This document shows positions 3,601 through 36,777 of a stretch of 45,759 bases of DNA, one piece after another. The translations under genes and the position numbers were made by a program. The stretch is from Candidatus Kerfeldbacteria bacterium (GTDB lineage: Bacteria; Patescibacteriota; Patescibacteriia; UBA9570). The notes beneath the pieces were generated by a model, which saw only the letters and a list, made by a program, of their open reading frames with translations, was not told the DNA's origin and did not search any database. Each line of letters opens with the position of its first letter. Positions within the stretch are counted from its first letter, which is position 1. The stretch lies in assembly GCA_016182495.1 (NCBI GenBank), contig JACPGK010000035.1, forward strand, positions 1 through 45,759. The letters run 5' to 3'.

Positions 3601-3612
3601 ACCATTTCAACC

Positions 3613-3750: not shown

Positions 3751-3762
3751 AGAAGTTGTTTG

Positions 3763-3792
3763 AGTATACACAGTCAATCCACACTTTGTCAA
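3763..3792 (-). promoter_or_regulatory. rpmH promoter
   Basis: TTGACA-18 nt-TATACT on the minus strand, 12 nt from the rpmH ATG. Confidence 0.65.
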
Positions 3793-3816
3793 CACTATCC
3801 AAACCGACCCGTCATG

Positions 3817-3825
3817 TTATCCACA
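3817..3825 (+). promoter_or_regulatory. DnaA box upstream of dnaA
   Basis: perfect TTATCCACA. Confidence 0.8.
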
Positions 3826-3850
3826 ACAGTTGTATGGTACTATACTCGCT

Positions 3851-5239: not shown

Positions 5240-5479
5240 TGCGCTCTTGTGTGTATCTATGTGGGTAACCTGAAGATAAGCCCGTGGATAATGACTGCGT
5301 AATCCGTGCATAACTAACCCTCTCGTAAAAGACTCAAAATTATTCACAATTCACCCACGGGCACATCCCCTAGTTTCCCACACCAACCTAATCAAAAGTA
5401 CTCTACGCCACAATAATCAAAACGACTTATCCACTTATCCCCCTAGCTTATTACTACTATTACTTATTTATAACTATTT
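5240..5479. other. oriC (dnaA-dnaN intergenic)
   Basis: DnaA-box-like sites at 5283-5291 (CGTGGATAA), 5305-5313 (CGTGCATAA), 5340-5348 (TTATTCACA), 5427-5435 (TTATCCACT), GC-rich stretch, then trinucleotide run TTATTACTACTATTA at 5448-5462 and an AT-rich stretch. Confidence 0.8.
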
Positions 5480-6592
5480 ATGAAATTCTCCTGTACTCAA
5501 GAAAATATTAATTATGCGCTAACCATAGTTGGGCGAATAGCCAACCGAACGCCAAACTTACCTATTTTACAAAACGTACTGCTTGAGGCCAAAGCCGGCG
5601 GCATTGTTATTGCTAGTACTAATCTTGAAATCGGAGTGCGCATGACAATTCGCGGTAAAGTGGAACAGGAGGGAAAATTTACCATACCAGCACAATTACT
5701 AGCGAACTATATCAACTTGCTTAGCGCCGAACGAATCGATTGTGTTTTAGAAAAAAAGAATTTACACATTAATGCTGGTAGCCAACAAACTCAAATTAAA
5801 GGAGAAGAGGCTACTGAATTTCCGTTACTGCCGGACATTGAACGAGAACACAGTTATACTATTAACCGAGTTGCCCTGGAATTAGGCTTACAACAAACAG
5901 TGATTGCGGCATCGGTTGATGAAACCAGGCCTGAAATTGCTGGGGTGTTGTTTTCTTTTCAAAACAACAAACTCACCCTAGCAGCCACAGATAGCTACCG
6001 GCTAGCTGAAAAGAAACTCGATCTTGAGCAGGCTGGCGACGAACATAAGATAATTTTACCATACCGCGCTGCTCAAGAATTACTACGGATTATTCAACTC
6101 ACCAAGATTGATCACGTAGCGGTGTTGTGTTCTGATACTCAATTAGCCTGCATTGCTGGTGAAATAGAGTTTGTATCTCGTTTGGTTGAAGGAGTGTTTC
6201 CCGAGTACGAACAGATTATTCCGAGTCAAAGCTCGACCGAAGCCGAGTTGGACTGCGCTACTCTGCTTAAAGCGGTTAAAGGCGCGGCCTTATTTTCGAA
6301 GGTGGGCATTAACGATATTGAGTTGGTGATATCAGCTGCTCAACAAGCGATGACGGTACGCTCAACCAACGCTCAACTAGGAGAAAACAGTACAGTTTTA
6401 CCAGCCCAGGTTCGTGGCCAAGATGTTCGAGCGGTGTTTAATTACCGTTACGTGGTTGACGGCATTCAACAAGTACAGCGACAAACCAGTACAACAGTGT
6501 GTTGTGGAGTGGCCGATAGCACTAGCCCCGGGGTGTTGTATGCTAAAAAGGATCCGTCATTTCACTATATTATTATGCCGATTAAACAGTAA
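5480..6592 (+). CDS. dnaN: DNA polymerase III subunit beta
   Basis: sliding clamp sequence; LPILQNVLLEA, TDSYRLAEKKL, YRYVVDGI; location after dnaA. Confidence 0.95.
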   Translation: MKFSCTQENINYALTIVGRIANRTPNLPILQNVLLEAKAGGIVIASTNLEIGVRMTIRGKVEQEGKFTIPAQLLANYINLLSAERIDCVLEKKNLHINAGSQQTQIKGEEATEFPLLPDIEREHSYTINRVALELGLQQTVIAASVDETRPEIAGVLFSFQNNKLTLAATDSYRLAEKKLDLEQAGDEHKIILPYRAAQELLRIIQLTKIDHVAVLCSDTQLACIAGEIEFVSRLVEGVFPEYEQIIPSQSSTEAELDCATLLKAVKGAALFSKVGINDIELVISAAQQAMTVRSTNAQLGENSTVLPAQVRGQDVRAVFNYRYVVDGIQQVQRQTSTTVCCGVADSTSPGVLYAKKDPSFHYIIMPIKQ

Positions 6593-6879
6593 TGCAATCG
6601 ATCTCTCGGCATGATATTTTACGACGATTACGGCAAACAGGCCTAGCCGAACAAGTTCAAGCTAGTGAAGTGCTACAGGCAGTACAATTATTTTTACGGA
6701 GTGAGTTTTCTCAAGCCAGTCAGGACATAGAGCCACTATATGTACGGGGACAAATCATAGTTATTCGATGTCATCAGTCGGCGGTGGCACAGCGCATTAA
6801 TGAACGAGCTGACGAGCTGTGTGCATATGTGTACCAGGCTACTGGGGTAACGTTAGCCGGAGTGCGTTTTCAGTTGTAG
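6592..6879 (+). CDS. DUF721/DciA-like protein
   Basis: 95 aa; VRGQIIVIRCHQSAVAQRINERADEL resembles DUF721; start overlaps dnaN stop (TAATG). Confidence 0.65.
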   Translation: MQSISRHDILRRLRQTGLAEQVQASEVLQAVQLFLRSEFSQASQDIEPLYVRGQIIVIRCHQSAVAQRINERADELCAYVYQATGVTLAGVRFQL

Positions 6880-9528: not shown

Positions 9529-9561
9529 AAAACAGGCTCACTATATCGAAAAAAAGTTATC

Positions 9562-9590
9562 TTGTCCAATTATGAACTGCGTGATAGGCT
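9562..9590 (+). promoter_or_regulatory. putative tyrS promoter
   Basis: TTGTCC-17-TAGGCT, then 7 nt to ATG at 9598. Confidence 0.45.
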
Positions 9591-9597
9591 GTGGCAT

Positions 9598-10788
9598 ATG
9601 GATCAAATTGAAGAGTTGTTGACTCGGGCGGTTGATACTATTTATCCAACTCGGCAAGCCCTTGAAGATAAGCTGCGTCGTGGCGAAAAACTCACCTTGT
9701 ATTTAGGAGTAGACCCCACTGGCGCCCAGCTCCACATTGGTCACACCATAGCGTTGCGTAAGCTGGCCCAATTTCAGCAGACCGGACACAAAGTGATTTT
9801 GCTGATTGGCGATTTTACCGGCCGGATTGGCGATCCCACCGGTAAAGATAAAACTCGCGTACCACTCACCCCAGAGCAATTGGCAGACAATGCTCGAACC
9901 TATCAACAGCAGGCTGCTAAAATTTTAGATTTTAACCACCCCACTAATCCAGTTGAACTTAAATATAACAGCGCCTGGTTAGCTCAACTCACGTTTGCCG
10001 ACGTTATTAAAGTAGCCTCACATTTTACCGTGCAGCAAATGTTGGAACGAGACATGTTTGAACAGCGCTGGCAGAAGAACAAACCGATCGCACTCCATGA
10101 ATTTTTTTATCCATTAATGCAAGGCTACGATTCAGTAGCCATGAATGTTGATTTAGAGGTGGGTGGTACCGATCAAACCTTTAACATGTTGGCTGGTCGT
10201 ACGTTACAGCGCCTGATGAATCAACGTGAAAAATTTGTACTCACTGTGCCATTGTTGATTGACGCCCAGGGCGTAAAGATTGGAAAAACGGCCGAGAATG
10301 TTATTGCTATTACAGCACCAGCGAACGATTTATACGGCATGATTATGGCTTTAAGTGATGAAGTGATTGTACCAGCGCTAGAGTTTTGTACTGATTTACC
10401 AATGACAACGGTGCGTCAGATTGAACAGCAATTGGCGGCCGGCGCTAATCCACGTGATGCTAAAATGCAACTGGCGCGCGCCATTGTAACGTTATATCAT
10501 AACGCCGCCGCTGCCGTATCCGCCGAACAAGAGTTTCAACAGATTTTTGTCCAGGGCGGAAAACCAACCGATCGCACTACTATGGCGGCCCCAATCAGCC
10601 ACCAACCATTGGATATTTTGGTGTCGCTACGGCTAGCTTCATCAAAATCTGAAGCCCAACGGTTAATTAAACAAGGTGGCGTACAATTGAACGATCACGT
10701 AGTCACTGATTGGCAGGCGCCATGGGGATTGCGTCCGGGTGACACCATTCAAGTTGGTAAACGAAAATTTATCCAAATTAGCGCTTAG
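9598..10788 (+). CDS. tyrS: tyrosyl-tRNA synthetase
   Basis: LYLGVDPTGAQLHIGH, GDFTGRIGDPTGK, S4 domain at C-terminus; start MDQIEELL at 9598. Confidence 0.93.
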   Translation: MDQIEELLTRAVDTIYPTRQALEDKLRRGEKLTLYLGVDPTGAQLHIGHTIALRKLAQFQQTGHKVILLIGDFTGRIGDPTGKDKTRVPLTPEQLADNARTYQQQAAKILDFNHPTNPVELKYNSAWLAQLTFADVIKVASHFTVQQMLERDMFEQRWQKNKPIALHEFFYPLMQGYDSVAMNVDLEVGGTDQTFNMLAGRTLQRLMNQREKFVLTVPLLIDAQGVKIGKTAENVIAITAPANDLYGMIMALSDEVIVPALEFCTDLPMTTVRQIEQQLAAGANPRDAKMQLARAIVTLYHNAAAAVSAEQEFQQIFVQGGKPTDRTTMAAPISHQPLDILVSLRLASSKSEAQRLIKQGGVQLNDHVVTDWQAPWGLRPGDTIQVGKRKFIQISA

Positions 10789-12301
10789 CCAGAACGCGAC
10801 GGTACAGTTTAACATATTGCAAGGCTGATTGATCCCAACTGTAGTTGGCTGTCATACCAGCTTTAATGTAGCGCTGCCAGCGGTTTGGTTGGGTGCGATA
10901 TAGTTGGACGGCCTGATCAATTGTTCTCACAAAAGCAGTTGCGGTTGGTTCGGAAAAAGTAAAACCATTGCGACCATTAAACACGGTATCTTTTAATCCA
11001 CCGGTGGCATGCACTATCGGCACAGCGCCATAGCGCATAGCAATTAATTGACTCAAACCACAAGGCTCATAGTGTGACGGCATCAAAAACATGTCTGATC
11101 CCGCGTAAATTTGTTGACTAAAGCGAACGTCAAAGGCGTTGTGAAAATAGAACCAAGAGCGATGGCGATGCTGGGCCTGTTTTAAGGCGTGCTCAAGTTT
11201 GGCCTCGCCGGTTCCGGTAATAATAATTTGCACACCTAAACGACGTAGCGTAGGCAAGCTAGCCAATAGTAAATCAACCCCTTTTTGTTCGACGATTCGT
11301 GCCACCATCCCCAGCAATGGTCGGCCGGCATTTTGAGTAAAACCAACTCGTTGTTGTAGCCATAATTTATTATGCAGGCGGCGAACGCGTGACCGAACGG
11401 TATACTGGTAAGGTACGCTAGGATCAGTGGCCGGGTTAAACCAATCGGTATCGAGACCGTTCAAAATAGCTGAAAACGACCGATGACGCTGATGGAGCAG
11501 TTGTTCTAGCCCGCGACCATACGTACGGGTGAGTAATTCTTTGGCATACTGTGGGCTAACGGTGTTCACTATATCAGCCTGAACAATTCCCAGTTCAAAT
11601 AAGCGCACGGCGCCCTGTTGTTTCACTCGGCGCCAATCAATCAGCGGGTGCAAGGCTAGTGGCAACAGATCAACATAGCGACCATACAGGCGAAAGGGCT
11701 TGGCCACCCCGCGCCAGCCAATATCTACATTATGAATGGTGAGTAGTGATTTAATCGTGGCCGTGGCGTGATGGCTTTTGAGCAAAGCCAATAATGGTGC
11801 CAGATGCCAGTCGTTGGCATGTACCAGCTGGTAGGCGGTTGGGTGTAGCGTTAACCAATGAAATACAGCTTGAGAAAAAAACAAATAACGAATCGGGTCA
11901 CGCAAGCGGCGCGAGGCTAGTCGTCGTTGAACGGGATCCCATACGTGTTTGCTGTTATAAATTTCTCCTCGACTAAGAAAACGTTGGTTCTGAAACAATA
12001 ACAGTGGTACCGTTGAGTTTGGTAGAGTCGTTTTCCAAATAGTCACTACTTCTAAGTGGTGATAAAAAGCCACCGCGATTTCACCGAGCTTGATTTTTTT
12101 AAGATCCGGGTAGGAGCGATCAATTACGTGGTGGTACGGTACGGCTACAGTTGGAACAACCTGGTGTTGCGCTAGGGCTTTAGGCAAAGAACCGATATAA
12201 TCGCCTAAACCACCCACCTTGGCTAACGGGGTAACCTCGGCTCCAACCAGCAGTATTCGGGGGTTACGTAGCCTGGCCATAGCGTTATTGATTGGGGTCA
12301 A
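10778..12301 (-). CDS. glgA: glycogen/starch synthase (GT5)
   Basis: LVGAEVTPLAKVGGLGDYIGSLPKAL; HANDWHLAPLL; MPSHYEPCGLSQLIAMRYGAVPIVHATGGLKDTV. Confidence 0.9.
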   Translation of the reverse strand: MTPINNAMARLRNPRILLVGAEVTPLAKVGGLGDYIGSLPKALAQHQVVPTVAVPYHHVIDRSYPDLKKIKLGEIAVAFYHHLEVVTIWKTTLPNSTVPLLLFQNQRFLSRGEIYNSKHVWDPVQRRLASRRLRDPIRYLFFSQAVFHWLTLHPTAYQLVHANDWHLAPLLALLKSHHATATIKSLLTIHNVDIGWRGVAKPFRLYGRYVDLLPLALHPLIDWRRVKQQGAVRLFELGIVQADIVNTVSPQYAKELLTRTYGRGLEQLLHQRHRSFSAILNGLDTDWFNPATDPSVPYQYTVRSRVRRLHNKLWLQQRVGFTQNAGRPLLGMVARIVEQKGVDLLLASLPTLRRLGVQIIITGTGEAKLEHALKQAQHRHRSWFYFHNAFDVRFSQQIYAGSDMFLMPSHYEPCGLSQLIAMRYGAVPIVHATGGLKDTVFNGRNGFTFSEPTATAFVRTIDQAVQLYRTQPNRWQRYIKAGMTANYSWDQSALQYVKLYRRVLAKR

Positions 12302-16949: not shown

Positions 16950-17990
16950 ATGGTTACAACACCACTTGATCAGCACAATGTGTTAGGTTCAATTGATCTA
17001 CTCTCTCAACAAATTAGTCAGGCCTGGCACGATGTGTCGGCATTGCAACTGCCAGCCGACTACAGTGATATCGACCAGGTGGTAGTATTTGGTATGGGCG
17101 GGTCGGCCCTAGGGGCTGATATTATTCGAACAGCCTTTGCCGATACCGCTCGCGTGCCAATTTTGATTGAAAATAACTATACCATTCCAGCCTATGTGCA
17201 TCAGCGCACCTTGGCGATTTTATCGAGTTATTCTGGTACCACTGAAGAAACTCTTACCGTGGCTAAGGCCATTAAGCAACGCACCAACAAAGTGGCTATC
17301 ATCACCACCGGTGGTGCTCTACAAGAACTTCATCAGCAAGCTGGCTATCCAGCTTATCTGATCACGCCCACCTATAATCCGTGTGGCCAACCGCGCATCG
17401 CTGTGGGCTATGCGATTATTGGCTTGCTTGGTTTGCTACACCATGCCAAAGTGTTAACAATCACCAACAGCCTGATTGATGATGTGGTGCACTACCTTGA
17501 TGGTAATCGAGAACTGTTGCGCGATGATGCCAAACAATTGGCCCAGCGCGTGACCGGGCACATTCCGTTATTTGTTGGTAGTGAATTTTTGATTGGTAAT
17601 TTACATACCGTTTCAAATCAAACCAACGAAAACGGTAAAAATTTTTCTACCTATTTTACTATTCCCGAACTGAACCACCATTTACTCGAAGGGCTAAGTT
17701 TTCCGGCCAGCGCCAAGCAGTTACTGCACATGGTATTGATTGAATCAGCCCTCTATCACGAGCGTAATCAAAAACGATACGTTGTGACTAAACAAGTGCT
17801 TGATAAAAATGAGGTGCAATATAGTAGCTTTATTGCTACAGCCAATACTACATTGTTGCAAGTGTTCGAAGTATTGCAGTGGGGCAGCTATATCAGTTTT
17901 TATTTAGCCATGGCTAACCAGGTCGACCCAGCCTTAATTCCGTGGGTTGATTACTTTAAACATGCTCTTACGCAAGTCCGCGCTGCGTGA
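16950..17990 (+). CDS. bifunctional phosphoglucose/phosphomannose isomerase
   Basis: SIS domain VVVFGMGGSALGADIIRTA, LSSYSGTTEETL; start MVTTPLDQ at 16950. Confidence 0.88.
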   Translation: MVTTPLDQHNVLGSIDLLSQQISQAWHDVSALQLPADYSDIDQVVVFGMGGSALGADIIRTAFADTARVPILIENNYTIPAYVHQRTLAILSSYSGTTEETLTVAKAIKQRTNKVAIITTGGALQELHQQAGYPAYLITPTYNPCGQPRIAVGYAIIGLLGLLHHAKVLTITNSLIDDVVHYLDGNRELLRDDAKQLAQRVTGHIPLFVGSEFLIGNLHTVSNQTNENGKNFSTYFTIPELNHHLLEGLSFPASAKQLLHMVLIESALYHERNQKRYVVTKQVLDKNEVQYSSFIATANTTLLQVFEVLQWGSYISFYLAMANQVDPALIPWVDYFKHALTQVRAA

Positions 17991-19494
17991 TTACGCCCTG
18001 GCTATAATCGCCAGCGCCGGACTGTTTGGTTGGTTACAGGCCATTCCCACATTTGCCGATCCAGATTCGTTTTATCATGCTCGCCTCACTGCCCTGATGC
18101 TTGATCATGGGTTATTGCAACAATTGCCTTGGCTATCATTCACTGATTTGGCGCAACAGTTTACCGATCAACATTTACTCTATCATTTGTGGTTGTTGCC
18201 TTGGGTAGCCTGGTTTGGGGCGGCCATTGGGGCCAAAGTTGGGCATACTATTTTATTGGTCGTAATGACGCTAGTATTTGTTGCCATACTACGTAGTTGG
18301 AAAATTCCATACGCTGTTCCAGCAGTGTTGCTATTGTATAGCGTGTCAGCTTTTTTGTTGCGGATTAATTTGGTCAAAGCCACTCCATTAGTATTAATCT
18401 TATTTTTTGGTGGCCTTACGTTACTGTTGCAGCGGCGCTACTTGGCGGCTTGGTGTTTAGGGATGTTGTACCCCTGGGCTCATGGTGGTTTTATACTACT
18501 GCCACTTGCCGCCGGCCTGATGGTGCTGGCAGATACAGTAGCTCAATCATGGCAAGGCCGGCGATTAAAATTAGGTGACCCTCGACCTTGGTGGATAGCC
18601 AGTAGTGCCGTGCTCGTTGGGCTAGTAGTACATCCGTACTTTCCGCAACACCTGAAATTTTATTGGCAGCAGTTGGTACAGATTGGGGTAGTGAACTATG
18701 CTAGTGTTATTTCAGTTGGAGCAGAGTGGTATCCATTTTCTTTGCCCAATTTAATTGGCGTGTTGAGTGTGGTATTGATTGCCGTAGTGGTTGCTATTGT
18801 GGTGGGCATATTTCGTCAACCCCAGCGTTTATTAAGTACGCCAGCGTTAACTTTTATGGGCTTAGCCATAGTGTTTACAGTAGCCACCTTGCGATCGCGA
18901 CGCTACGTTGAGTATCTAGCACCAGTGGTATGGTTTTGGGCAATGTACTTGGCGTTGCCGTATCTGGCTTCGGGTCAGTGGAAAGCCGATTGGCAGCGCT
19001 TAACGCACTACACTGGGCGATGGTACTATGTGTTTATACTCTATTGTGCCATTACTATTCCCGTTGGCATGGTGCGATCGGTGTTGAACATTCATCAAGA
19101 GTTTACCAAAGGCTTCGCTTTGGATTACTTAGCCGGGGCCAGTAGGTATGTACAAACCCATGCCCAGCCAGGCAGCGTAGTGTTTCACTCCGATTGGGAT
19201 AATTTTCCGATGTTGTTTTATCACAACCCTGATAATTATTATATTGTCGGCCTTGATCCAACATTTTTATACTTACATAATCAGAACACGTATCAGCAGT
19301 GGCGCCAGTTAGTGGATGGCAAAGTAAAACAGTCTTTGGCTAACACTATCCATCAGCAGTTTGGAGCGGATTACGTGGTGGTCGATACTACTGATCCATC
19401 AGCCCAATTATTTCGGGCCTACCTATTACGGGATCCGGAATTGCAATTGGTGTTTCAGGATAATGAAGCCGTAGTATTTAAACGTAGCCTATGA
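17962..19494 (+). CDS. GT-C (STT3/PMT-like) multi-TM glycosyltransferase-like protein
   Basis: DPDSFYHARL near the N-terminus, many TM helices, extracytoplasmic HSDWDNFPMLFYHNPDNYYIVGLDPTFLY. Confidence 0.55.
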   Translation: MLLRKSALRDYALAIIASAGLFGWLQAIPTFADPDSFYHARLTALMLDHGLLQQLPWLSFTDLAQQFTDQHLLYHLWLLPWVAWFGAAIGAKVGHTILLVVMTLVFVAILRSWKIPYAVPAVLLLYSVSAFLLRINLVKATPLVLILFFGGLTLLLQRRYLAAWCLGMLYPWAHGGFILLPLAAGLMVLADTVAQSWQGRRLKLGDPRPWWIASSAVLVGLVVHPYFPQHLKFYWQQLVQIGVVNYASVISVGAEWYPFSLPNLIGVLSVVLIAVVVAIVVGIFRQPQRLLSTPALTFMGLAIVFTVATLRSRRYVEYLAPVVWFWAMYLALPYLASGQWKADWQRLTHYTGRWYYVFILYCAITIPVGMVRSVLNIHQEFTKGFALDYLAGASRYVQTHAQPGSVVFHSDWDNFPMLFYHNPDNYYIVGLDPTFLYLHNQNTYQQWRQLVDGKVKQSLANTIHQQFGADYVVVDTTDPSAQLFRAYLLRDPELQLVFQDNEAVVFKRSL

Positions 19495-20981
19495 AAGCCG
19501 TTTGGCTAGGGTTAACCATAGTGACAGTACTACTATTTTTGCCGCATCATTGGTCGGCTGAATTAAGCGACCCCGATGCCTTTTATCATATGAAAATGGC
19601 GCAACTACTCACCACCCAAGGAGTCATCCAACAATTTCCTTGGCTGCCATATACTACATTGAATCAACATTTTACCGATCAACATTTATTATTCCATGTC
19701 TTGATGATGCCGTTTGTGACGTGGGGTGATCCATTCGTTGGTATTAAACTGTTTACCATTACATTGGCGACAGTTTTTATTATCGTGTTCGCAACCACCT
19801 TGCGAGCGGTTGGGTTACGCTGGTGGTTGCCAGTAACATTGGCATTACTAGTAACTGTACCATTTACCTTTCGGTTGAATTTAGTTAAAGCTACGCCGTT
19901 AGCCCTAATACTATTATGTTTAGCTTGGTTAGGTATTGTGAAAAAACGGTGGTGGTGGGTGAGCGCGATAACAGTGGTGTATGTGTGGTCCTATGGTGGG
20001 TTTGCCATGCTGTATTTAGTACTCGGCTGCTGGCTAGTGAGTCAGTGGTTAACTCAACCGTGGCGTAGCTGGGCTAGTACGCTGTGGCCAATGCTGGCGG
20101 TTGGTACTGGCACAGTGCTTGGGTTGATAGTGAATCCATATTTTCCAAATAATATTTTATTTTACTGGGATCAATTAGTGCAGATTGGTATTATTAACTA
20201 TCGTGACAGCATTAGCGTAGGAGCCGAATGGTACACGTACAATATTGCCGAGTTACTACTTGGTTCAGTAGTATTGTTCAGCGCTGCGATCGTTAGCCTA
20301 ACTTTACTTATTATTCAACGGCGACGCTGGGCCCAATTAGATTGGTTTGCAGTTTTTTTGGCGCTACTGGGTATTGCTCTAACCATCAAGTCGCGGCGCT
20401 ATGTTGAATACTTTGGGCCGTACTTGGCCATAGCCGTGGCCATTTGGTTACGGCATCAGGTAGTCACTTGGGCAGGAGTTGTACAGTTGATGGTGCGTCA
20501 ATGGAAAATAGCCAGTCTAGCGGTGGCGGTACTAGCCGTAGTGATTTTTACCACGTTGCCAGTTGTGTTAGCCGATGTTGAACGTAATATCAGTGATGTC
20601 CGTGGCGGTATTAGTGTGACAAAATTTAAGCACAGTAGTCAGTGGTTACAAACGCACGCGCCACCAGGTAGTGTGGTATTGCATAGTGATTGGGATGATT
20701 TTCCATCGTTGTTTTACTATAACAGTCAAGCTGTGTATATGGCTGGGCTTGATCCTACGTTTATGTATCGTTTTAATCCCACGTTGTATCAACTGTGGGT
20801 TGATCTTACCACTGGTGATTATCATGGCGATGTGTCGGCGGCCCTGACTACTTTAGCCGTTGATTATGTATTAATTGAACATGATCATGTGGCCATGGAG
20901 CGTTTGATAAAACAAACCACGCGGGCTCGATTGGTGTATCAGGATGACGAGGTGACTGTATATCAGGTGGTAACAAAATAA
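19491..20981 (+). CDS. GT-C (STT3/PMT-like) multi-TM protein, paralogue of the preceding gene
   Basis: DPDAFYHMKM; HSDWDDFPSLFYYNSQAVYMAGLDPTFMY; same topology. Confidence 0.55.
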   Translation: MKAVWLGLTIVTVLLFLPHHWSAELSDPDAFYHMKMAQLLTTQGVIQQFPWLPYTTLNQHFTDQHLLFHVLMMPFVTWGDPFVGIKLFTITLATVFIIVFATTLRAVGLRWWLPVTLALLVTVPFTFRLNLVKATPLALILLCLAWLGIVKKRWWWVSAITVVYVWSYGGFAMLYLVLGCWLVSQWLTQPWRSWASTLWPMLAVGTGTVLGLIVNPYFPNNILFYWDQLVQIGIINYRDSISVGAEWYTYNIAELLLGSVVLFSAAIVSLTLLIIQRRRWAQLDWFAVFLALLGIALTIKSRRYVEYFGPYLAIAVAIWLRHQVVTWAGVVQLMVRQWKIASLAVAVLAVVIFTTLPVVLADVERNISDVRGGISVTKFKHSSQWLQTHAPPGSVVLHSDWDDFPSLFYYNSQAVYMAGLDPTFMYRFNPTLYQLWVDLTTGDYHGDVSAALTTLAVDYVLIEHDHVAMERLIKQTTRARLVYQDDEVTVYQVVTK

Positions 20982-21035: not shown

Positions 21036-21422
21036 TTATTCGGCGTTGGTGAAGTTCAACAGGTTGTTGATGGCGTAGATGGATAAGCCCCAGGCGGCTA
21101 GAATGACCACCAAACCAATTAAGGCGGCAATCAACAATTTTTTAGCACCTTCCACTTTTTCTTCGTTGCCACCGGCTGTCATCCATTTAAAACCACCCAC
21201 TAAAATCATTACTACGGCAATCAAGGCAAGTATCCCTAATACCCAGTTGATGGTGGCGACAGCGATGTCTTCAGGGCTGGCATCACCTAAACCAATATTA
21301 GCGCCGTAGTTGGCACCTAACTCTTCTGCCGATAGAGCAAAAGCAGTTTTAGCTAGTAACAAACTAGCTGACCCTACCCCAAGGTAGGCGAATTTTGAAA
21401 TGCGAGCGGTAAGTAGGCTCAT
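21036..21422 (-). CDS. T4SS-pilin/VirB2-like small membrane protein (1)
   Basis: signal peptide, GLGDASPEDIAVATINW, VGGFKWMTAGGNEEKVEGAKKLLIAALIGLVVIL. Confidence 0.75.
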   Translation of the reverse strand: MSLLTARISKFAYLGVGSASLLLAKTAFALSAEELGANYGANIGLGDASPEDIAVATINWVLGILALIAVVMILVGGFKWMTAGGNEEKVEGAKKLLIAALIGLVVILAAWGLSIYAINNLLNFTNAE

Positions 21423-21495
21423 ACTTATTTAAGGCTTAAAGAAAATTTAATTGAATGTATTATAGCATGATCTAAAAAAACTGTAAAGAGGGGGA

Positions 21496-21525
21496 TTGAC
21501 TTTTAGTCAATTTCCGTGGTATATT
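21496..21525 (+). promoter_or_regulatory. promoter of the plus-strand pilin array
   Basis: TTGACT-18-TATATT, 7 nt to ATG at 21533. Confidence 0.6.
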
Positions 21526-21532
21526 ATAGATC

Positions 21533-21898
21533 ATGACGTTTAGTAAACACATTGGTTCAGCACTAGGGCTACTATTTTTTCCAGTTTTGGCCCGAGCTTA
21601 TACACTTGAATTTGATCCCGGACTTATTTTGTATGGCAAATCCCAACTGGGGGCAAACGATCCAGCCTACATTGTATTTACCACCGTGAATACGGCTTTG
21701 ATTTTTTTGGGATTAATTACCGTAGTGATGATCGTGGTGGCTGGCTTTATGTGGATTTTAGCAGCGGGTGAAGAAGAAAAAATCACCAAAGCTAAAGATT
21801 TACTGAAAGGGTCAGTTTTGGGTTTAATTATTGTATTGGCTTCATACGGCTTAGCCAGATTTGTATTCGTGGCTATCCAAACAGCCGTGGCCGGTTAA
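21533..21898 (+). CDS. T4SS-pilin/VirB2-like protein (2)
   Basis: LGANDPAYIVFTTVNTALIFLGLITVVMIVVAGFMWILAAGEEEKITKAKDLLKGSVLGLIIVLASYG. Confidence 0.72.
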   Translation: MTFSKHIGSALGLLFFPVLARAYTLEFDPGLILYGKSQLGANDPAYIVFTTVNTALIFLGLITVVMIVVAGFMWILAAGEEEKITKAKDLLKGSVLGLIIVLASYGLARFVFVAIQTAVAG

Positions 21899-21906
21899 TT
21901 ACTGAT

Positions 21907-22308
21907 ATGAACACCAAATTCTTTTATCACAGTATCGGACTCGCTATTACCATTACTATGACATTGGGGCTAATCACATTAGCCCAGGCCGCCACTATTA
22001 CGCTAGACCCACTCCAAGGTGGCGACTACGGCAGCTTGGAAAACAGCACTGGTTTAGGCAGCACCGATCCAGTGGTGGTAGCTAGTCAGTTGGTCAATGT
22101 GTTTTTACGCGTGCTGGGCTTGCTGTGTGTACTACTAATGTTATACGGTGGCTTTCGGTGGATTTGGGCTCGTGGCAATGAAGAGGAAATTAGCACCGCC
22201 AAAGATATTATTCGCGGCACGGTGATTGGTTTGGTGGTGGTTTTGTCTTCCTTTGGAATAATGCAATGGGTGTTTTACTACCTAACTCGCATTACCAATG
22301 CCCAATAA
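21907..22308 (+). CDS. T4SS-pilin/VirB2-like protein (3)
   Basis: GLGSTDPVVVASQLVNVFLRVLGLLCVLLMLYGGFRWIWARGNEEEISTAKDIIRGTVIGLVVVLSSFG. Confidence 0.75.
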   Translation: MNTKFFYHSIGLAITITMTLGLITLAQAATITLDPLQGGDYGSLENSTGLGSTDPVVVASQLVNVFLRVLGLLCVLLMLYGGFRWIWARGNEEEISTAKDIIRGTVIGLVVVLSSFGIMQWVFYYLTRITNAQ

Positions 22309-22819
22309 CTCTTGGCGTTATTTGATTCGGGTAGTTACCATGACCATACTGCTGGCTGTGACAGTGCCTGTGTTGGCTGATGAATTAGATAATGCCGAAC
22401 GGGAAGCGCTAAATGCTGCTCAAGTTGAGCAACAAGCAGCCAGCGATACTGCTGCGGGTAGTACCGCCAGTAAACTTGATAGTTTTTTACAGTTTGATCC
22501 GGCCAAAAATGATAGTCGTTTTAGTTCGATTGAGCGGTTAAGTTTTTTAACTGGCGCTGACGATCCGGTGAGCGTATCAATTCGATTAGTGAACACCGCG
22601 CTTGGTTTTTTGGGCATGCTATCAACCTTGTTGATGTTGTATGGTGGCGTGATTTGGTTTATGTCGCGCGATAACGAAGAACGCGTTGAACAAGCTAAAG
22701 AAATCATTAAAGGCACCGTGATTGGTTTAATTATCACCATGCTGGCTTTGTCCGTTAGTTTACTCACCTTTAATCTTATTCAAGATGTGGTTTCGTCAGA
22801 CACAGCCAGTGAACAATAA
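22298..22819 (+). CDS. T4SS-pilin/VirB2-like protein (4)
   Basis: LTGADDPVSVSIRLVNTALGFLGMLSTLLMLYGGVIWFMSRDNEERVEQAKEIIKGTVIGLII. Confidence 0.72.
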   Translation: MPNNSWRYLIRVVTMTILLAVTVPVLADELDNAEREALNAAQVEQQAASDTAAGSTASKLDSFLQFDPAKNDSRFSSIERLSFLTGADDPVSVSIRLVNTALGFLGMLSTLLMLYGGVIWFMSRDNEERVEQAKEIIKGTVIGLIITMLALSVSLLTFNLIQDVVSSDTASEQ

Positions 22820-23273
22820 ATTGATCACTGTAACATTAATCAGTGTTAGTTTGGTTTTGGGTATGGTAACGGCTGGTTTAGCGGCAGTTAAACCCGGCGA
22901 AACCGCGCCACAAAAGTTAGACCTTGACCCAGCAGTTAACAATATTGTTTATACAAATAGCATTGCTAATGTTGAAAAGCTCTATACTATTGGCATTTTA
23001 AATCTTGGCCAGAATGATCCGGTGACAGTAACCATTCGGATTATTTCTATAGCCCTGACTTTGCTTGGGATGGCCTTTTTGGTATTATTAATTTACGCTG
23101 GTTTTTTATGGGCCCTCGCCCGCGGCAATGAAGAGGCCATTACCAAGGCGAAAAATTTAATTAAACGCGCCGTGATTGGCTTTATTATCGTAATGGCTTC
23201 CTTGGGCATTAGCACTACTGTGTTTTATCAAATTCGACAAGCCACCATATCAAATTCGACAAGCCACCAATAA
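22785..23273 (+). CDS. T4SS-pilin/VirB2-like protein (5)
   Basis: LGQNDPVTVTIRIISIALTLLGMAFLVLLIYAGFLWALARGNEEAITKAKNLIKRAVIGFIIV; start uncertain (could be further in). Confidence 0.7.
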   Translation: MWFRQTQPVNNKLITVTLISVSLVLGMVTAGLAAVKPGETAPQKLDLDPAVNNIVYTNSIANVEKLYTIGILNLGQNDPVTVTIRIISIALTLLGMAFLVLLIYAGFLWALARGNEEAITKAKNLIKRAVIGFIIVMASLGISTTVFYQIRQATISNSTSHQ

Positions 23274-23275
23274 TT

Positions 23276-23719
23276 TTGGCTCATAACACAACTACCATGA
23301 CACTTACTAAAATTATCTTTACCGTTGGCAGCGCTGTTTTGGGATTTTATACACCAGCTTTCGCCGGAGATCCAGTGAACTTTGATCCAAAGGCGAACGA
23401 TCCCACTGGTCAAATTCAAAGTACGCTTGAAGAAAATTTGGGATTAGGTACCATCGCCCCAACTGTAGTGGCGCTCGATTTAATTAACCAAGCCCTCACC
23501 TTGCTGGGCGCTGTTAGTCTAATGCTGTTACTCTATGGTGGTTTTTTGTGGGTGTGGGCCCGTGGTAATGAAGAACAAGTTGGGCAGGCTAAACAAATTA
23601 TTCAAGGCACGATTATTGGCTTGGTGATTGTGTTTGCCTCGCTTGGTATTACTCGGTTTGTCTTTACCACCGTAGCCGATATTACCAACGCTGATTATAA
23701 TATTAGTAACAGCGGTTGA
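23276..23719 (+). CDS. T4SS-pilin/VirB2-like protein (6)
   Basis: LGLGTIAPTVVALDLINQALTLLGAVSLMLLLYGGFLWVWARGNEEQVGQAKQIIQGTIIGLVIV. Confidence 0.72.
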   Translation: MAHNTTTMTLTKIIFTVGSAVLGFYTPAFAGDPVNFDPKANDPTGQIQSTLEENLGLGTIAPTVVALDLINQALTLLGAVSLMLLLYGGFLWVWARGNEEQVGQAKQIIQGTIIGLVIVFASLGITRFVFTTVADITNADYNISNSG

Positions 23720-24126
23720 AGATAATTAACCATAACAACCATACTATGTTCAAACGCCTACTCATCACTTTGATTATTACCGCCAGTATGGTAGCTCCAG
23801 CCATATCGCTGGCAGCCTATAATCCGCAGGAAGTCACCTTTGATCCAAATAACAACGCTCAACGGAACACTGGGTTAGGTAATGCTAGCCCCACTGATGT
23901 GGCGGCTGGAATTATTCAACGGGTGTTGACTATTTTAGCCTTACTGGCCTTGATTTTAATGATCTACGCTGGTTTTGTGTGGATGCTATCACGTGGCAAG
24001 GAAGAAGATGTTGAACGGGCTAAAGAAATTTTATACGGTGCTTTATTTGGTTTGATTGTGATTTTGGCTTCTTATGGGTTATCGTTGTATGTGTTCGAGA
24101 ACTTGATCAATATTACCAACGCATGA
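23716..24126 (+). CDS. T4SS-pilin/VirB2-like protein (7)
   Basis: LGNASPTDVAAGIIQRVLTILALLALILMIYAGFVWMLSRGKEEDVERAKEILYGALFGLIVIL; start may be at the internal MFKRL. Confidence 0.72.
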   Translation: MKIINHNNHTMFKRLLITLIITASMVAPAISLAAYNPQEVTFDPNNNAQRNTGLGNASPTDVAAGIIQRVLTILALLALILMIYAGFVWMLSRGKEEDVERAKEILYGALFGLIVILASYGLSLYVFENLINITNA

Positions 24127-24515
24127 AACCGGTTTTGCTCACTAGCCTGATCGGGTTAGCTATCAGTTTGCCAGCCCTAGCCTATCAAACGCAAAATTTG
24201 ACCCTCGATTATAATAAACGGCTGGAAAATGGCACCCAGTTAGGCGCTTATGAAGTCACCGATCAAGGCCCCACTGGCGGACCCGTGGTAATTGCCTCAC
24301 AAATTGTAAACCTACTGTTGCTTCTATTAGGAACGTTTTCTTTGTGTCTGATGTTTTACGGTGGCTATATTTGGGTAATGTCACGTGGCAATGAAGAACA
24401 AGCTAAACGGGCTAAAGATATTATCATTGGCACAGTGACTGGCTTGGTGGTTATTCTGGCGTCGTACTCAATTATGAGCTACGTGTTTCGTAGTATCGTT
24501 GATATCACCGACTAG
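24123..24515 (+). CDS. T4SS-pilin/VirB2-like protein (8)
   Basis: GGPVVIASQIVNLLLLLLGTFSLCLMFYGGYIWVMSRGNEEQAKRAKDIIIGTVTGLVVIL; ATGA overlap with previous gene. Confidence 0.72.
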   Translation: MKPVLLTSLIGLAISLPALAYQTQNLTLDYNKRLENGTQLGAYEVTDQGPTGGPVVIASQIVNLLLLLLGTFSLCLMFYGGYIWVMSRGNEEQAKRAKDIIIGTVTGLVVILASYSIMSYVFRSIVDITD

Positions 24516-24516
24516 C

Positions 24517-24897
24517 TTACGTGGTTGGCGCTATGGTCGAGGCATCTTGTAACACCGAGAAGGTGTATTCCAAAATAGCGTAACTGCTCAAAATAACCGC
24601 TAAACCAATCACGGCCCACACCAGCGTGTCTCGGCCTTTTTTTATTTTTTCTTCGCTACCACCAGAAAAAATAATTTTGAATCCACCCCAAATAAATATT
24701 AATAAAGTGGCCGCACCTACTAATCCCAGCAGTACTTGAATAATAGTAGCCACAATATAGACTGGTTCTTGTTTTGAAACATCGGCGGCTGTTCCAAACG
24801 GTGGATCAAGTTGTTCTCCGGACGCTCGCACCAACCAGGGCAAGCTGATGCCAACTAAGCTGATGACCAGAGATTTGATTGAACGAAGCATAGGCAT
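24517..24897 (-). CDS. T4SS-pilin/VirB2-like protein (9)
   Basis: EPVYIVATIIQVLLGLVGAATLLIFIWGGFKIIFSGGSEEKIKKGRDTLVWAVIGLAVILSSY. Confidence 0.7.
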   Translation of the reverse strand: MPMLRSIKSLVISLVGISLPWLVRASGEQLDPPFGTAADVSKQEPVYIVATIIQVLLGLVGAATLLIFIWGGFKIIFSGGSEEKIKKGRDTLVWAVIGLAVILSSYAILEYTFSVLQDASTIAPTT

Positions 24898-24906
24898 AGA
24901 AAAAGA

Positions 24907-25779
24907 TTAATTTTTTTGACCAGCACAGATGTAACCCTTATCAGGACACTGTACACCAGCGGGCACATCTTTGATATTGTATGTACCGGTGGTTTTAACG
25001 GTACTTTGAGCCACACAGCCAAAGGTGTAATCTGCCAAACTGGCGGCCTTGGTGGCGTTAAAGCGATCGCACCCTTGGGCACAGTAACATTCTTGTTGCT
25101 CCTCGGCTCCAGTTTTAAAATCTGGCTCGGTGCTGGTACTGGCAATATCGCAGCGACCAGTATCAATAATACTTTTATCCGTACCACTGTACCGTTTGCG
25201 GTAACAGTAGCAGGCGCCTTCGTTGTTGTCATCTTTTGGACAATCGCCACTGGTGCCGCAAGCATCGCCAATGTATTTGCCGGCACAATCTGTTTGATTG
25301 GGGTCGCACTTCGAAGCCGCTGTCCACCAATCAAATGGACTGTTTGATTTAAATAGTTGGTAATCTTCTACCTTGGTTACTTCTTTACCGGTGGAACTAC
25401 GATAGGCTAACCGCACCACAAAGTTGATTAAAAACCAAGCTACAAACACCACGGCTAAACCAGTCACCGTGCCGACCAGAATTTTTTTACCAGTTTCAAT
25501 CCGTTGTTCGTTGCCACCAGAGAACACAAAAAAGAAACCACCCACAATAAACATCAGTAACGATATGCCGCTCAACCCCCCAGCAATTAAATTTGAGGCA
25601 TTGACTACCGCTTGAGTGATATCACAAATTGAACAGCCGCCAATTTGTTTACGACACTCCGGTACAATTGATAAAGCAAAACCAACGGTGCTTTCTCCAG
25701 CCGCTGCACTGATAGTTGGCCTGGCCCAGCCGCCAATGACGACCATACCCACAGCGGCAATGATGAGGAGTTTATTCAT
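24907..25779 (-). CDS. T4SS-pilin-like N-terminus with Cys-rich C-terminal domain (10)
   Basis: VGGFFFVFSGGNEQRIETGKKILVGTVTGLAVVFVAW followed by ~170 aa with many Cys. Confidence 0.65.
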   Translation of the reverse strand: MNKLLIIAAVGMVVIGGWARPTISAAAGESTVGFALSIVPECRKQIGGCSICDITQAVVNASNLIAGGLSGISLLMFIVGGFFFVFSGGNEQRIETGKKILVGTVTGLAVVFVAWFLINFVVRLAYRSSTGKEVTKVEDYQLFKSNSPFDWWTAASKCDPNQTDCAGKYIGDACGTSGDCPKDDNNEGACYCYRKRYSGTDKSIIDTGRCDIASTSTEPDFKTGAEEQQECYCAQGCDRFNATKAASLADYTFGCVAQSTVKTTGTYNIKDVPAGVQCPDKGYICAGQKN

Positions 25780-27148
25780 AGGTCAGTTCTACTTTAGCGG
25801 CGGTGTTGGCGACAGCGGTTTGCGGGTCGAGGCGTTGATCGTTCACTACCGTGATCATATCAGCAAAGGCTTGGTCTACTTCTGCTGGCTTACTGCCGGC
25901 ATACCAACTTTGCGCCGTGAGTGCTTGGTTGGCAAATACGCTTAAGGTAAAATCTTCTTGTTGATCAGCGAGAATCGCTTTTAAAGCCGCTGGTTGGCCG
26001 GTAGCGTCGGCATAGGCTTGAGCCACTGCCGTAGTAGTGGTGATATACTCTACTAAAGCCCAGGCTTCGTTGGGATGCGCTGAATTAATGGATACCGTTT
26101 CTAACCAGTAATTAGCGTAATTCACTTCAGCCGCTAGATCAACTTGCGGGATAGGGGCAATATCAAAGTTTAATTGTGGCGCGCGATTTTTAATATCGGC
26201 TAGTTGGTAATGATACCCTAAAAAGTAAGCACTGGTGCCATTGATAAAGGTTTCTAGGGCGTCGGGTTGATTAGAATTCCAGCTGTACCACTCTACTTCT
26301 GGATTGGCAAAACTGGTATAAAACTCCAACGCTTTACTACCTGGAAAATAATCACGTTGCTCTTCCGATTCATCGGCAAACAGAATGCGATCACCTAACG
26401 ACATCACCGCCCCATTTTGCATCATTAGTAACGACATAATATCGAAATAGCCTGGTACGTTATTAGCTGTACCAAGGGCCGCGCCAGCTTGAATAACATT
26501 ATTATCAATATCCACCAAGGTCATTTTTGGCACCTGCTCTACAAATTCTTGCCAGGTAGTAGCCGGCAGGGGAATTTTTCCTTTACTTAATAAATCTTTG
26601 TTGTAGTAGAGTACTAGGGTATCGAGGCTTAATGGTAAACCAAACACTTTTTCGGTAGCGGTAGTAGTATCGGTTTCATCCACTAACACGGTGTCATCAC
26701 TGACTACTTGAGGAAACAGTGAGGAAATTTGTTGAGGCGATATCGTTCGTTTAGCCGTGCTATCAACAATTTGTTGGGTAGAACCAAAACTTTTCTCGGT
26801 GGTAACAGTAGCTACTTTTATACTGCTGGGCAGTGGACTAATGAGGTTTTTAAATTTACCCAAGTGACTATTTGGTATTGAAAAAATATCAGGACCTTCT
26901 CCTTGCGCCCAGGCTTCAATTAAACTATTTTCGTATTCTTCTGGAGTAAGTTGGCGTACTTCAACCTTAATGTAGGGATGGTTCGCTTGAAAAGCGGTGA
27001 TGCTTGGTAGGATGTTTTCTTCTTCAGTATACACCGTCCAGTATTGCAAGGTGACTGTGGCTGGTACTTTGCCACTGTTTCGACAAATTGCCCCTGACGT
27101 GGTGATCACCAGTAGTACTACAAACCACAGTACAGTTCGTCTATTCAT
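25772..27148 (-). CDS. extracellular solute-binding protein (family 1)
   Basis: LQYWTVYTEEENILPSITAFQANHPYIKVEVRQLTPEEYENSL..; start moved to MNRRTVLWF. Confidence 0.8.
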   Translation of the reverse strand: MNRRTVLWFVVLLVITTSGAICRNSGKVPATVTLQYWTVYTEEENILPSITAFQANHPYIKVEVRQLTPEEYENSLIEAWAQGEGPDIFSIPNSHLGKFKNLISPLPSSIKVATVTTEKSFGSTQQIVDSTAKRTISPQQISSLFPQVVSDDTVLVDETDTTTATEKVFGLPLSLDTLVLYYNKDLLSKGKIPLPATTWQEFVEQVPKMTLVDIDNNVIQAGAALGTANNVPGYFDIMSLLMMQNGAVMSLGDRILFADESEEQRDYFPGSKALEFYTSFANPEVEWYSWNSNQPDALETFINGTSAYFLGYHYQLADIKNRAPQLNFDIAPIPQVDLAAEVNYANYWLETVSINSAHPNEAWALVEYITTTTAVAQAYADATGQPAALKAILADQQEDFTLSVFANQALTAQSWYAGSKPAEVDQAFADMITVVNDQRLDPQTAVANTAAKVELTYE

Positions 27149-27154
27149 GGAAAA

Positions 27155-27182
27155 ATTATACCAGTTTTTCTGAATTTTGCAA
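27155..27182 (-). promoter_or_regulatory. solute-binding protein promoter
   Basis: TTGCAA-16-TATAAT, 6 nt to ATG at 27148. Confidence 0.6.
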
Positions 27183-27213
27183 CTATTCGTCCGCTCCTTA
27201 TTGGTCAACGTAG

Positions 27214-30208: not shown

Positions 30209-32512
30209 ATGAAATATATCATGTTGACTGCGGTACTGGCCAGTACACTGATGATTAGTCAATCCGCCCAAGCTCAAACTGTATCGCTATCGTTATTTAC
30301 TGAATTAACTGGTCAATCTGCCGGCGATTTTGCTGGCCAGGCCGTTGCCAGTGCTGGTGATATTAATGGCGATGGTTTTCAAGATATGCTGATTGGAGCA
30401 CCCAATAACGATACTGCTGGAGCCAATGCTGGAGCGGCTTATATTATATATGGACAAAATGCCCAGTTTACTTCGCCAATCAGTTTAAGTGATAGCATAG
30501 TGGTACCATTAAGCGGTGTAACAGCTGGTGATACTGCCGGTTACGCTGTGGCTGGCGCCGGTGACGTGAATAATGATGGCTTTGATGATTTTTTGATTGG
30601 CGCTTATCGACGGTCGAGTGGAGCAGGCAGTGCCTATTTAATTTACGGACAATCGCAAACATTAACCGCCGTAACGTTAGCTCAAGCCGTCACAGCCGGT
30701 GGGGCAGAGTTTACTGGCGAAATGGCCAATGATCAGGCCGGTTATGCTGTGGCTGGCGCCGGGGATGTCAATGGCGATGGCTATGATGATTTTTTGATTG
30801 GTGCTAATACCATGGCTGATGGTGGCACCAATGCCGGCGCTGCCTATATTATTTATGGTAAACCAACCGAATACACTTCAACCAGTTTAGCCACGAATGA
30901 TAGCAATATTGTGCAGTTGACCGGAGAATCAGCTAGTAATTTGGCTGGAGCGGCCGTAGCCACAGCTGGGGACGTCAATTTTGATGGCTATGCTGATTTT
31001 TTGATCGGGGCATACGGGTATAACTCTACGGCCGGCGCCGCTTATTTAGTATATGGCGGCTCAACCAAACTCACCAATGCTAGTTTAGCCAGTACAGTGC
31101 GGTTTAGTCATACTGTTGCTAATGCTTCGGCTGGTTATGCGGTAGCCTCGGCTGGTGATATCAATAGTGACAGTTATGCTGATTTTTTGATTGGCGCCTA
31201 CAATGCTTCTGGGGCTAAGGGAGCAACCTATGTTTTATACGGCCAAGCGACGGTCTGGACCAGTGCCACTTTGGCGGCCAGTTCAATTATTGTAGAACTA
31301 ACCGGTGAAACCGCCGGCGACTCATCTGGCTATGCTGTGGCTGGCGTCGGCGATGCTAATGGTGATGGTTTTGATGACTTTGCCATTGGGGCATGGAATA
31401 ATGATGATGGTGCCAGCAATAGCGGGGCAGCGTACTTGGTACTGGGTCAGGATAGTACGCTAACTTCCGGCGATGTATCAGCTATGATTGAATTGACTGG
31501 TGTAGCCGCTAGTGACGCTGCTGGTATTGCCGTGGCCACATCGGGTGATGTTAACGCCGATGGTTATCCGGATATATTAATTGGAGCTCGATCGACTGAT
31601 ACTACGGGAACCGATGCTGGCTCGGCCTATTTGGCGTACATGTATATTGATGCCGATGGTGATGGTGAAGGCTCTCCGGATGCTATTTTTCCTGGTACAG
31701 ATTGTGATGATAGCGACGATAGTGTCAGCGAAGAACAAACCTATTACGTTGATGCCGATGGTGATGGCTTGGGTACGAGTGAGACGGCTGTACTGTGTAG
31801 TAGTACGCCGCCAGCCGGATATAGCGATAACAGTAACGATACCGACGATACGGTTGTGAATAACGGCGTAGAAATTGATGACGACCAGGTTGATAATGAC
31901 GGTGATGGTGAGATTGATGAACATAACACCATTACAGAAAATGGAGCCCATCCCGGTTATGGCACTACCGATCCCAGTGATCCGGCTGCGTACGCCAGCA
32001 ATGTACTAACTATTGCTGGTACGATTGATGGTGACATGTTGGTTACTTTTGCTGATAATTCAGTGTATCAATATGATGTGTTTACTGGCACCACCACTCA
32101 ATTAACCAAAGTCAGTTCTTACCAAGCTACCGGCTATATTGTGGTACTGCAGGCCCAGGGGCAAAAATTGGCCCTGGTGAATGTGTATAACGGCGAAGTA
32201 TTTTCCAGTATTACTCTATCTAAAACGAATCTCTACAGTAAAACTAGCGTACTCTTGAAAGATGCTCGATCAGATCACTCGGTTGAGGTAGTGGTAACTT
32301 CACGGCAGAAAGCGCAGGTATTGTTAACAATTACGAAAGTAAATTTGACTAAGGAAAAGTTAAAACGCAAAAGCCTAGTCACTCTATCGAATAAGGCCGT
32401 GGCCCCAAACAAAACCAAAGTGAAGAAATCTACCATTAGCCTACGTACTAAAAAAGGCCAGGTGCTTCAGCCGTATAGAGTAACAAAAAAGTATAAATTG
32501 AAGGCTGCTTGA
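30209..32512 (+). CDS. FG-GAP repeat (integrin-alpha-like) beta-propeller with Ca-binding DxDGDG region
   Basis: seven GDxNxDGxxDFLIGA repeats; then DADGDGEGSPDAIFPGTDCDDSDDSV..YYVDADGDGLG (MopE/TSP3-like). Confidence 0.85.
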   Translation: MKYIMLTAVLASTLMISQSAQAQTVSLSLFTELTGQSAGDFAGQAVASAGDINGDGFQDMLIGAPNNDTAGANAGAAYIIYGQNAQFTSPISLSDSIVVPLSGVTAGDTAGYAVAGAGDVNNDGFDDFLIGAYRRSSGAGSAYLIYGQSQTLTAVTLAQAVTAGGAEFTGEMANDQAGYAVAGAGDVNGDGYDDFLIGANTMADGGTNAGAAYIIYGKPTEYTSTSLATNDSNIVQLTGESASNLAGAAVATAGDVNFDGYADFLIGAYGYNSTAGAAYLVYGGSTKLTNASLASTVRFSHTVANASAGYAVASAGDINSDSYADFLIGAYNASGAKGATYVLYGQATVWTSATLAASSIIVELTGETAGDSSGYAVAGVGDANGDGFDDFAIGAWNNDDGASNSGAAYLVLGQDSTLTSGDVSAMIELTGVAASDAAGIAVATSGDVNADGYPDILIGARSTDTTGTDAGSAYLAYMYIDADGDGEGSPDAIFPGTDCDDSDDSVSEEQTYYVDADGDGLGTSETAVLCSSTPPAGYSDNSNDTDDTVVNNGVEIDDDQVDNDGDGEIDEHNTITENGAHPGYGTTDPSDPAAYASNVLTIAGTIDGDMLVTFADNSVYQYDVFTGTTTQLTKVSSYQATGYIVVLQAQGQKLALVNVYNGEVFSSITLSKTNLYSKTSVLLKDARSDHSVEVVVTSRQKAQVLLTITKVNLTKEKLKRKSLVTLSNKAVAPNKTKVKKSTISLRTKKGQVLQPYRVTKKYKLKAA

Positions 32513-36261: not shown

Positions 36262-36777
36262 TTATTTTTTTAATCGTTTAATTTTTTCTTGAATATAAAA
36301 AGACAGATACCCTGCATTACTTTTTTGAAATTTTGGATTCTGCCATGAGGTGCCGTCAATTTTACCACGGCAATTTTTATCTCCACATCGACAAGTAAAT
36401 TTTAGATCTTGAGTGTCAGTTGTTTCGTAATCAAAACATATTTCCTCGCCGGCTTTAATTTTTCTTCTCGCGACTAATATAATTGATCCCTTCACGCCGG
36501 CATTAGCGTGACAACTATGATTGAACATCTCACAATCATCCAGATTTTTTGCCGATTTTGGACCTAAATAAAAATTTTCAAAAATTTGAACCGGATAATC
36601 GTAATCAAGAATAGTCCTCGGTAATTTTCTTAATTCTTTTAAAGTGATAACGTATCCTCCCCATAGCGCTATCAATTCTTCTTTTTTTATATCTTCTTTT
36701 GCAAAAACTCCGTAACGATGAATGGTACTGTTGTTTTGCGCTTTGCATTTTGGCGACAAATAAGAATGTTTCCTCAT
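36262..36777 (-). CDS. SET-domain protein (putative protein-lysine methyltransferase) with post-SET Cys motif
   Basis: GVFAKEDIKKEELIALWGG; MFNHSCHANAGVKGSIILVARRKIKAGEEICFDYETTD; CRCGDKNCRGKI. Confidence 0.85.
   Translation of the reverse strand: MRKHSYLSPKCKAQNNSTIHRYGVFAKEDIKKEELIALWGGYVITLKELRKLPRTILDYDYPVQIFENFYLGPKSAKNLDDCEMFNHSCHANAGVKGSIILVARRKIKAGEEICFDYETTDTQDLKFTCRCGDKNCRGKIDGTSWQNPKFQKSNAGYLSFYIQEKIKRLKK

Follow-up and report, generated by a model that had tools for sequence, protein, structure and literature searches.

The window analysed here, the whole stretch of 45,759 nt of contig JACPGK010000035.1 (assembly GCA_016182495.1), carries at positions 21036-25779 an array of ten adjoining open reading frames (ORFs) for pilins of the type IV secretion system (T4SS), and comparison with related genomes indicates that this array is an old, ordered set of non-equivalent orthologous subunits and not a shuffled repertoire. 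The explanation that we favour, and that we consider rather probable, is one mixed-subunit surface assembly with specialised subunits, which would be used by the chromosomal T4SS and in which a solute-binding protein (SBP) encoded next to the pilins would serve as the external ligand-binding part. The named relatives of the source genome are metagenome-assembled genomes of Ca. Kerfeldbacteria, with Falkow-, Magasanik-, Uhr- and Kuenenbacteria as more distant ones, and the genome is read as a member of the class ABY1 of the Patescibacteria, akin to Ca. Kerfeldbacteria.

The ten ORFs are arranged as one gene on the minus strand, seven on the plus strand and two on the minus strand, followed by the SBP gene, and all ten matched the T4SS_pilin family PF18895, with E values from 1.6e-13 to 1.2e-6 and 29.0-50.9 bits (curated gathering threshold 26.6). 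They are listed below with their lengths in amino acids (aa) and, for the pilins, the E value against PF18895.

21036..21422, minus strand, pilin position 1, 128 aa, E 1.6e-13; the most conserved subunit, reciprocal best hit in 9/9 other genomes of the order
21533..21898, plus strand, pilin position 2, 121 aa, E 2.2e-7
21907..22308, plus strand, pilin position 3, 133 aa, E 8.2e-10
22298..22819, plus strand, pilin position 4, 173 aa, E 1e-8; 11-bp overlap with position 3
22785..23273, plus strand, pilin position 5, 162 aa, E 3.5e-10; 35-bp overlap with position 4
23276..23719, plus strand, pilin position 6, 147 aa, E 1.1e-7
23716..24126, plus strand, pilin position 7, 136 aa, E 1.2e-6; overlaps both neighbours by 4 bp
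24123..24515, plus strand, pilin position 8, 130 aa, E 1.7e-7
24517..24897, minus strand, pilin position 9, 126 aa, E 8.2e-10; the array member nearest to TrbC/VirB2 (TrbC PF04956 E 6.9e-5, under the cut-off)
24907..25779, minus strand, pilin position 10, 290 aa, E 3.3e-7; pilin domain plus C-terminal Cys-rich tail (from the alignment)
25772..27208, minus strand, SBP, head gene of the SBP-pilin 10-pilin 9 unit; 8-bp overlap with pilin 10

A common core could be aligned in all ten proteins, consisting of a G..DP..V....N segment, a first transmembrane (TM) helix, the motif YGGF.W...RGNEE....AK.II.G..IGL.IVL.S and a second TM helix, although pairwise identity between array members was 15-50%. In position 10 the DP segment is replaced by Cys residues and the Cys-rich tail adds about 150 residues. 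Between orthologues, the N-terminal region was 26-51% identical, compared to 47-79% for the core. These results bear out the initial annotation, made from the sequence alone, in its description of a ten-ORF cluster with these strands, a common core and strongly diverged N-terminal regions, and the family matches correspond to T4SS pilins and not to unrelated two-TM proteins; a chance two-TM resemblance was rejected, as all ten members lie above the curated PF18895 cut-off. Signal peptides and topology were read by eye, without a predictor, and positions 6 and 7 have uncertain (TTG) starts.

Matches to the classical pilin families were weaker. The threshold of TrbC PF04956 (27.9 bits) was not reached by any member, positions 1, 7 and 9 scoring below it and the others being unmatched among the matches listed; among position-9 orthologues, 6/10 matched TrbC (best E 2.6e-8). 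The top NCBIfam match for positions 1, 3, 6 and 9 was NF045849 (best E 1.4e-8, 34.3 bits vs. a cut-off of 40).

The seven plus-strand genes lie close together, either 2-8 bp apart or overlapping by 4-35 bp, and position 10 shares 8 bp with the SBP gene. The array thus appears to form three transcription units, with pilin 1 alone on the minus strand, pilins 2-8 on the plus strand, and the SBP, pilin 10 and pilin 9, in this order, again on the minus strand. Pilins 1 and 2 are separated by 110 bp, which contain two divergently oriented promoter-like sites of the extended -10 type (21459..21525; 11/12 and 10/12 matches, TG being present in each). Promoter and terminator scans of the region gave site numbers not above those of shuffled sequences.

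The conservation of the individual positions was analysed in the window genome and nine other genomes of its order, four genera of which make up the window's own family (f1). Across these four genera the ten positions were colinear and almost all were reciprocal best hits. As exceptions, positions 4 and 5 are fused in one genome (G004), and some few pairs at positions 4, 5 and 8 were not reciprocal. In a tree of 95 pilin domains, each position formed its own clade over the four genera, with the following support (ultrafast bootstrap/SH-like approximate likelihood ratio test).

Positions 1-5: position 1, 98/91; position 2, 100/94; position 3, 99/96; position 4, 100/95; position 5, 100/89
Positions 6-10: position 6, 99/95; position 7, 97/86; position 8, 100/93; position 9, 100/98; position 10, 99/84

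The alignment is short (88 columns), which leaves the deep forks of this tree weak and the position clades not. Position 10 also formed an order-wide clade (100/97) and positions 1 and 9 were reciprocal best hits throughout the order, whereas the plus-strand set expanded independently in a second family, f2 (own clade 93/80). A recent tandem duplication was rejected as the origin of the array, since the positional clades are deep. In G004, positions 4 and 5 constitute a single frame of 307 aa (L046, 7176-8099); from this fusion, both subunits may contact each other.

The order of the genes was also followed class-wide in 79 named loci, in which the pilins were labelled by four profiles (position 1, position 9, position 10 and plus set) built solely from the window's order. 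Outside Kerfeldbacteria, each array tested had all its pilins on the same strand, in the order SBP-P10-P9-P1-plus set; the arrays of the window's order differ in that the plus block stands, inverted, between P9 and P1. Five or more pilins were present in 49 loci outside the order. In these, 825 of the 865 label pairs (95%) were concordant with the order P10<P9<P1<plus set and 31 loci were perfectly ordered, whereas 2000 shuffles gave a mean concordance of 50% and a maximum of 63%. A repertoire of interchangeable or switching pilins would not easily account for such conservation. The ten orthologue groups found across genera, together with the class-wide order, support the earlier proposal of an assembly of several subunits and not of one pilin, and the cluster proved conserved in relatives; the variable set suggested as its alternative found no support, the set being old and ordered and not reshuffled.

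The SBP is of the family 1 sugar-binding type (PF01547, E 5.9e-21, 76.2 bits vs. a cut-off of 26), with a sequence match to PDB 4qrz_A (E 1.2e-10). Its linkage to the pilins is general: its end lies at most 60 bp from the first pilin in 41/42 ABY1 loci and, when the phylum was searched with the SBP as a query, it was present in 92/117 genomes, and 28 of the 30 loci retrieved had a PF18895-type gene downstream, at most 150 bp away in 24 of them and at most 251 bp away in the other four; 23 of these 30 loci are from outside the class. Among 72 SBP relatives, 59 have a Cys after a signal-like segment and the remainder start with a membrane-anchor-like helix, as judged by eye. The SBP appears to be an orphan without cognate permease, because both of the PF00528 permeases that the genome was seen to encode adjoin binding proteins of their own (NMT1-type and SBP_bac_8/6-type) and because three genomes of the order (G006, G007 and G008) keep the SBP with zero PF00528 matches, G007 being 81% complete. 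In this it differs from the binding proteins of ABC importers that it resembles in sequence (PF01547; PDB 4qrz), its operon partner being a pilin set. In G002 the pilin-linked SBP (L045, 9922-11358, minus strand) is split in two frames by a stop, due to either a lesion or an assembly error.

The initial annotation had also noted that VirB4, VirB6 and VirD4 genes were missing nearby, which is true of the window, where none of the three was found, but a single chromosomal T4SS is present elsewhere in the genome, as in all ten genomes of the order. A VirB4 gene (P-loop_TraG, E 5.4e-29) is located on another contig (C22) with recG nearby, as is a PrgI-like gene (E 1.5e-5; 25.9 bits, slightly below the cut-off of 27), and a type IV coupling protein (T4CP)-like gene, present in 8/10 genomes of the order, is on contig C19. 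The C22 layout agrees with the recG-T4SS neighbourhood reported for ABY1 (PMC12102498). VirB4 was detected in 10/10 genomes of the order and in 72/78 of the class, nearly always as a single copy, and PF18895 in 74/78 of the class; ten proteins of the C22 T4SS locus had no homologue in the 79 array loci.

Pilin hairpins were also found at the head of larger proteins. This genome and most of its relatives encode a secreted protein of giant size, some 2,200-2,900 aa long, in which an N-terminal pilin hairpin, similar to position 1 in the alignment, is followed by Ig-like (Big_5) sequence. Two proteins adjoining VirB4 also have an N-terminal pilin hairpin, one of them with a VanY/M15 peptidase domain and the other Cys-rich; the former is a candidate stand-in for the missing VirB1 function. 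The corresponding features are as follows.

L043 (G000:C16) 3575-11974, minus strand, giant protein of 2,799 aa with the T4SS pilin domain at its head, Big_5 and other repeats
L041 6071-7105, L054 8078-9514 and L055 5064-6071, pilin-VanY/M15-like fusions beside VirB4

Relatives across the class have counterparts of the giant protein, open frames of some 2,000-4,700 aa that include a pilin domain. In the window's genome, both VirB4-linked pilin-fusion genes (L041, G000:C22, 6071-7105 and 9328-10239, minus strand) are without the sequence that encodes membrane helix 1, the junction being the same in each, and have a near-identical block in common, while the genes of the relatives are intact. The defect would be either genuine or an artefact of a repeat collapsed during assembly.

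Taken as parts of the assembly that we favour, the array would encode a fixed, long-established set of VirB2-like subunits that cannot replace one another. Each pilin would be secreted and would cross the membrane as a two-helix hairpin, exposing its own N-terminal region outwards (in position 10, the C-terminal one too). The giant protein and the proteins of the T4SS locus could dock into this structure via the same hairpin, as adhesin and wall-opening peptidase, respectively, and the SBP, anchored outside without a permease, would be a receptor or ligand-sensing part. Co-assembly, use by the T4SS with its dependence on VirB4, and the roles of the SBP, the giant protein and the peptidase are what we infer from these gene relationships. 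Several results weigh against this explanation. The filament or complex is itself a prediction. The array is unlinked to virB4 in the window's order, and the co-occurrence of both is uninformative, as they are near-universal in the class. The AlphaFold model of position 1 contained only a hairpin (H50-82/H87-124, pLDDT, the predicted local distance difference test score, about 70), which against PDB and BFVD retrieved only generic helical hairpins, none with E <0.001, and F-plasmid TraA was unmatched in the profile comparison. The model of position 10 (pLDDT 49.5) was not used, and comparison of the pilin profiles with PDB sequences gave nothing relevant.

A wider version of the same idea would be a phylum-wide device in which the pilin operon and the orphan SBP capture a ligand (a nutrient or a polymer of the host, perhaps) and hand it over to a hetero-polymeric structure of pilins or move it through this structure. 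It would then be an organelle for reception or uptake, derived from a T4SS and serving epibiotic life, and not a secretion pilus; we put this forward tentatively, as a possibility with the odds against it. A non-pilus membrane complex, in which a two-TM hetero-oligomeric channel or scaffold and the SBP would together make up an importer of an unconventional kind, would fit the orphan, membrane-anchored SBP adjoining pilin genes phylum-wide, models that give a hydrophobic hairpin only, and several subunits present once each, as in a complex. However, the matched families (PF18895, TrbC and NF045849) are pilins, no energising ATPase is linked except the distant VirB4, and a transport role is without support, so that we regard such an importer as unlikely.

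It is quite unlikely, in our opinion, that the array is an expanded set of interchangeable pilins for host-range or surface variation, as suggested in PMC12102498 by analogy with Bartonella and Anaplasma. The low identity between paralogues (15-50%), the faster evolution of the N-terminal regions compared to the core, and the number of plus-set genes, which varies between families with a separate expansion in f2, speak for such a repertoire, but every position is orthologous and colinear over the four genera of the family, the order is kept class-wide, and neither gene conversion nor recent duplication was seen in the array. A conjugative pilus of the usual kind, belonging to a mobile element, is very improbable. 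The weak matches to conjugal-pilin models and the T4CP-like gene of most genomes of the order could point to one, but the array lies amid housekeeping genes and is syntenic across the order, and VirB4 is chromosomal and near-universal; relaxases have been reported in few patescibacterial genomes (PMC12102498). The window carries dnaA and dnaN, about 15 kb from the array, as well as ruvC and yebC close by, and the array locus is therefore part of the chromosomal core and not of a mobile element.

Two other genes, encoding paralogous large membrane proteins, lie on the pilin 1 side of the array, as they do in the order.

17947..19494, plus strand, paralogue of the following protein, DPD..YH motif (by eye)
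19491..20981, plus strand, large membrane protein adjoining pilin 1, DPD..YH motif (by eye)

The motif suggests that both are GT-C or oligosaccharyltransferase-like enzymes, for which glycosylation of the pilins would be a possible role; Pfam and NCBIfam searches gave no family for them. A homologue of the protein adjoining pilin 1 was found at the same place in 8/9 other genomes of the order, the contig of the ninth being short. Elsewhere in the window, a 767-aa protein (30209-32512, plus strand) contains six FG-GAP (integrin-like propeller) repeats, and a 171-aa protein (36262-36777, minus strand) is SET-domain methyltransferase-like by eye (NHSCHAN..., GEEICFDYE).

Tandem VirB2 arrays with 2-11 diverged pilin genes were described in Patescibacteria in 2025 (Quinonero-Coronel et al., PMC12102498). 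The present array is of this kind, with ten tandem PF18895 pilins of low mutual identity and one VirB4 in the genome, the VirB4 of the published systems being of an MPF_FATA-related clade; the chromosomal VirB4 and its PrgI/VirB3-like partner likewise resemble the MPF_FATA-like patescibacterial T4SS. The published arrays were read as versatility for different hosts, whereas here fixed, ordered orthologues are headed by an orphan SBP and lie away from virB4. In Ca. Southlakia epibionticum, the T4SS genes and a pilin series are essential (Wang et al. 2023, PMC10633639; PMC12857230). This patescibacterium also combines a series of diverged predicted pilins with a monoderm-type T4SS, although its pilins (six per PMC12857230) are inside the T4SS cluster, and those studied here are ten, from another class and on a separate contig from virB4. 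The conjugative TrbC/VirB2 pilins (PF04956) are small secreted two-helix proteins, as the array members are predicted to be, and their profile is matched by position-9 orthologues, but the window members are under the cut-off, and many fixed paralogues without adjoining conjugation genes stand here against one major pilin. The Mbov_0395-family pilin-like conjugal transfer protein of mycoplasma integrative and conjugative elements (NF045849) was the best NCBIfam match, although with a score under the cut-off and, in our case, a ten-gene set.

The main text of PMC12102498 makes no mention of the SBP, and nothing on an SBP-pilin linkage in Patescibacteria was found in the searchable literature, with subscription papers and supplements outside its scope. 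As far as this literature shows, both the phylum-wide orphan SBP as a partner of the pilin operon and the ABY1 arrays as ordered sets of orthologous, non-equivalent subunits are new.

Patescibacteria are dependent on other cells. In the one patescibacterial species tested, the T4SS is needed for epibiotic growth (PMC10633639). The fixed positional orthology of the array argues against a variable repertoire and for a machine with specialised subunits, in which the phylum-wide orphan SBP of the pilin operon would be a candidate ligand-recognising part, experimentally tractable, and the pilin-headed peptidase-like protein beside VirB4 may provide the VirB1 function that is otherwise missing.

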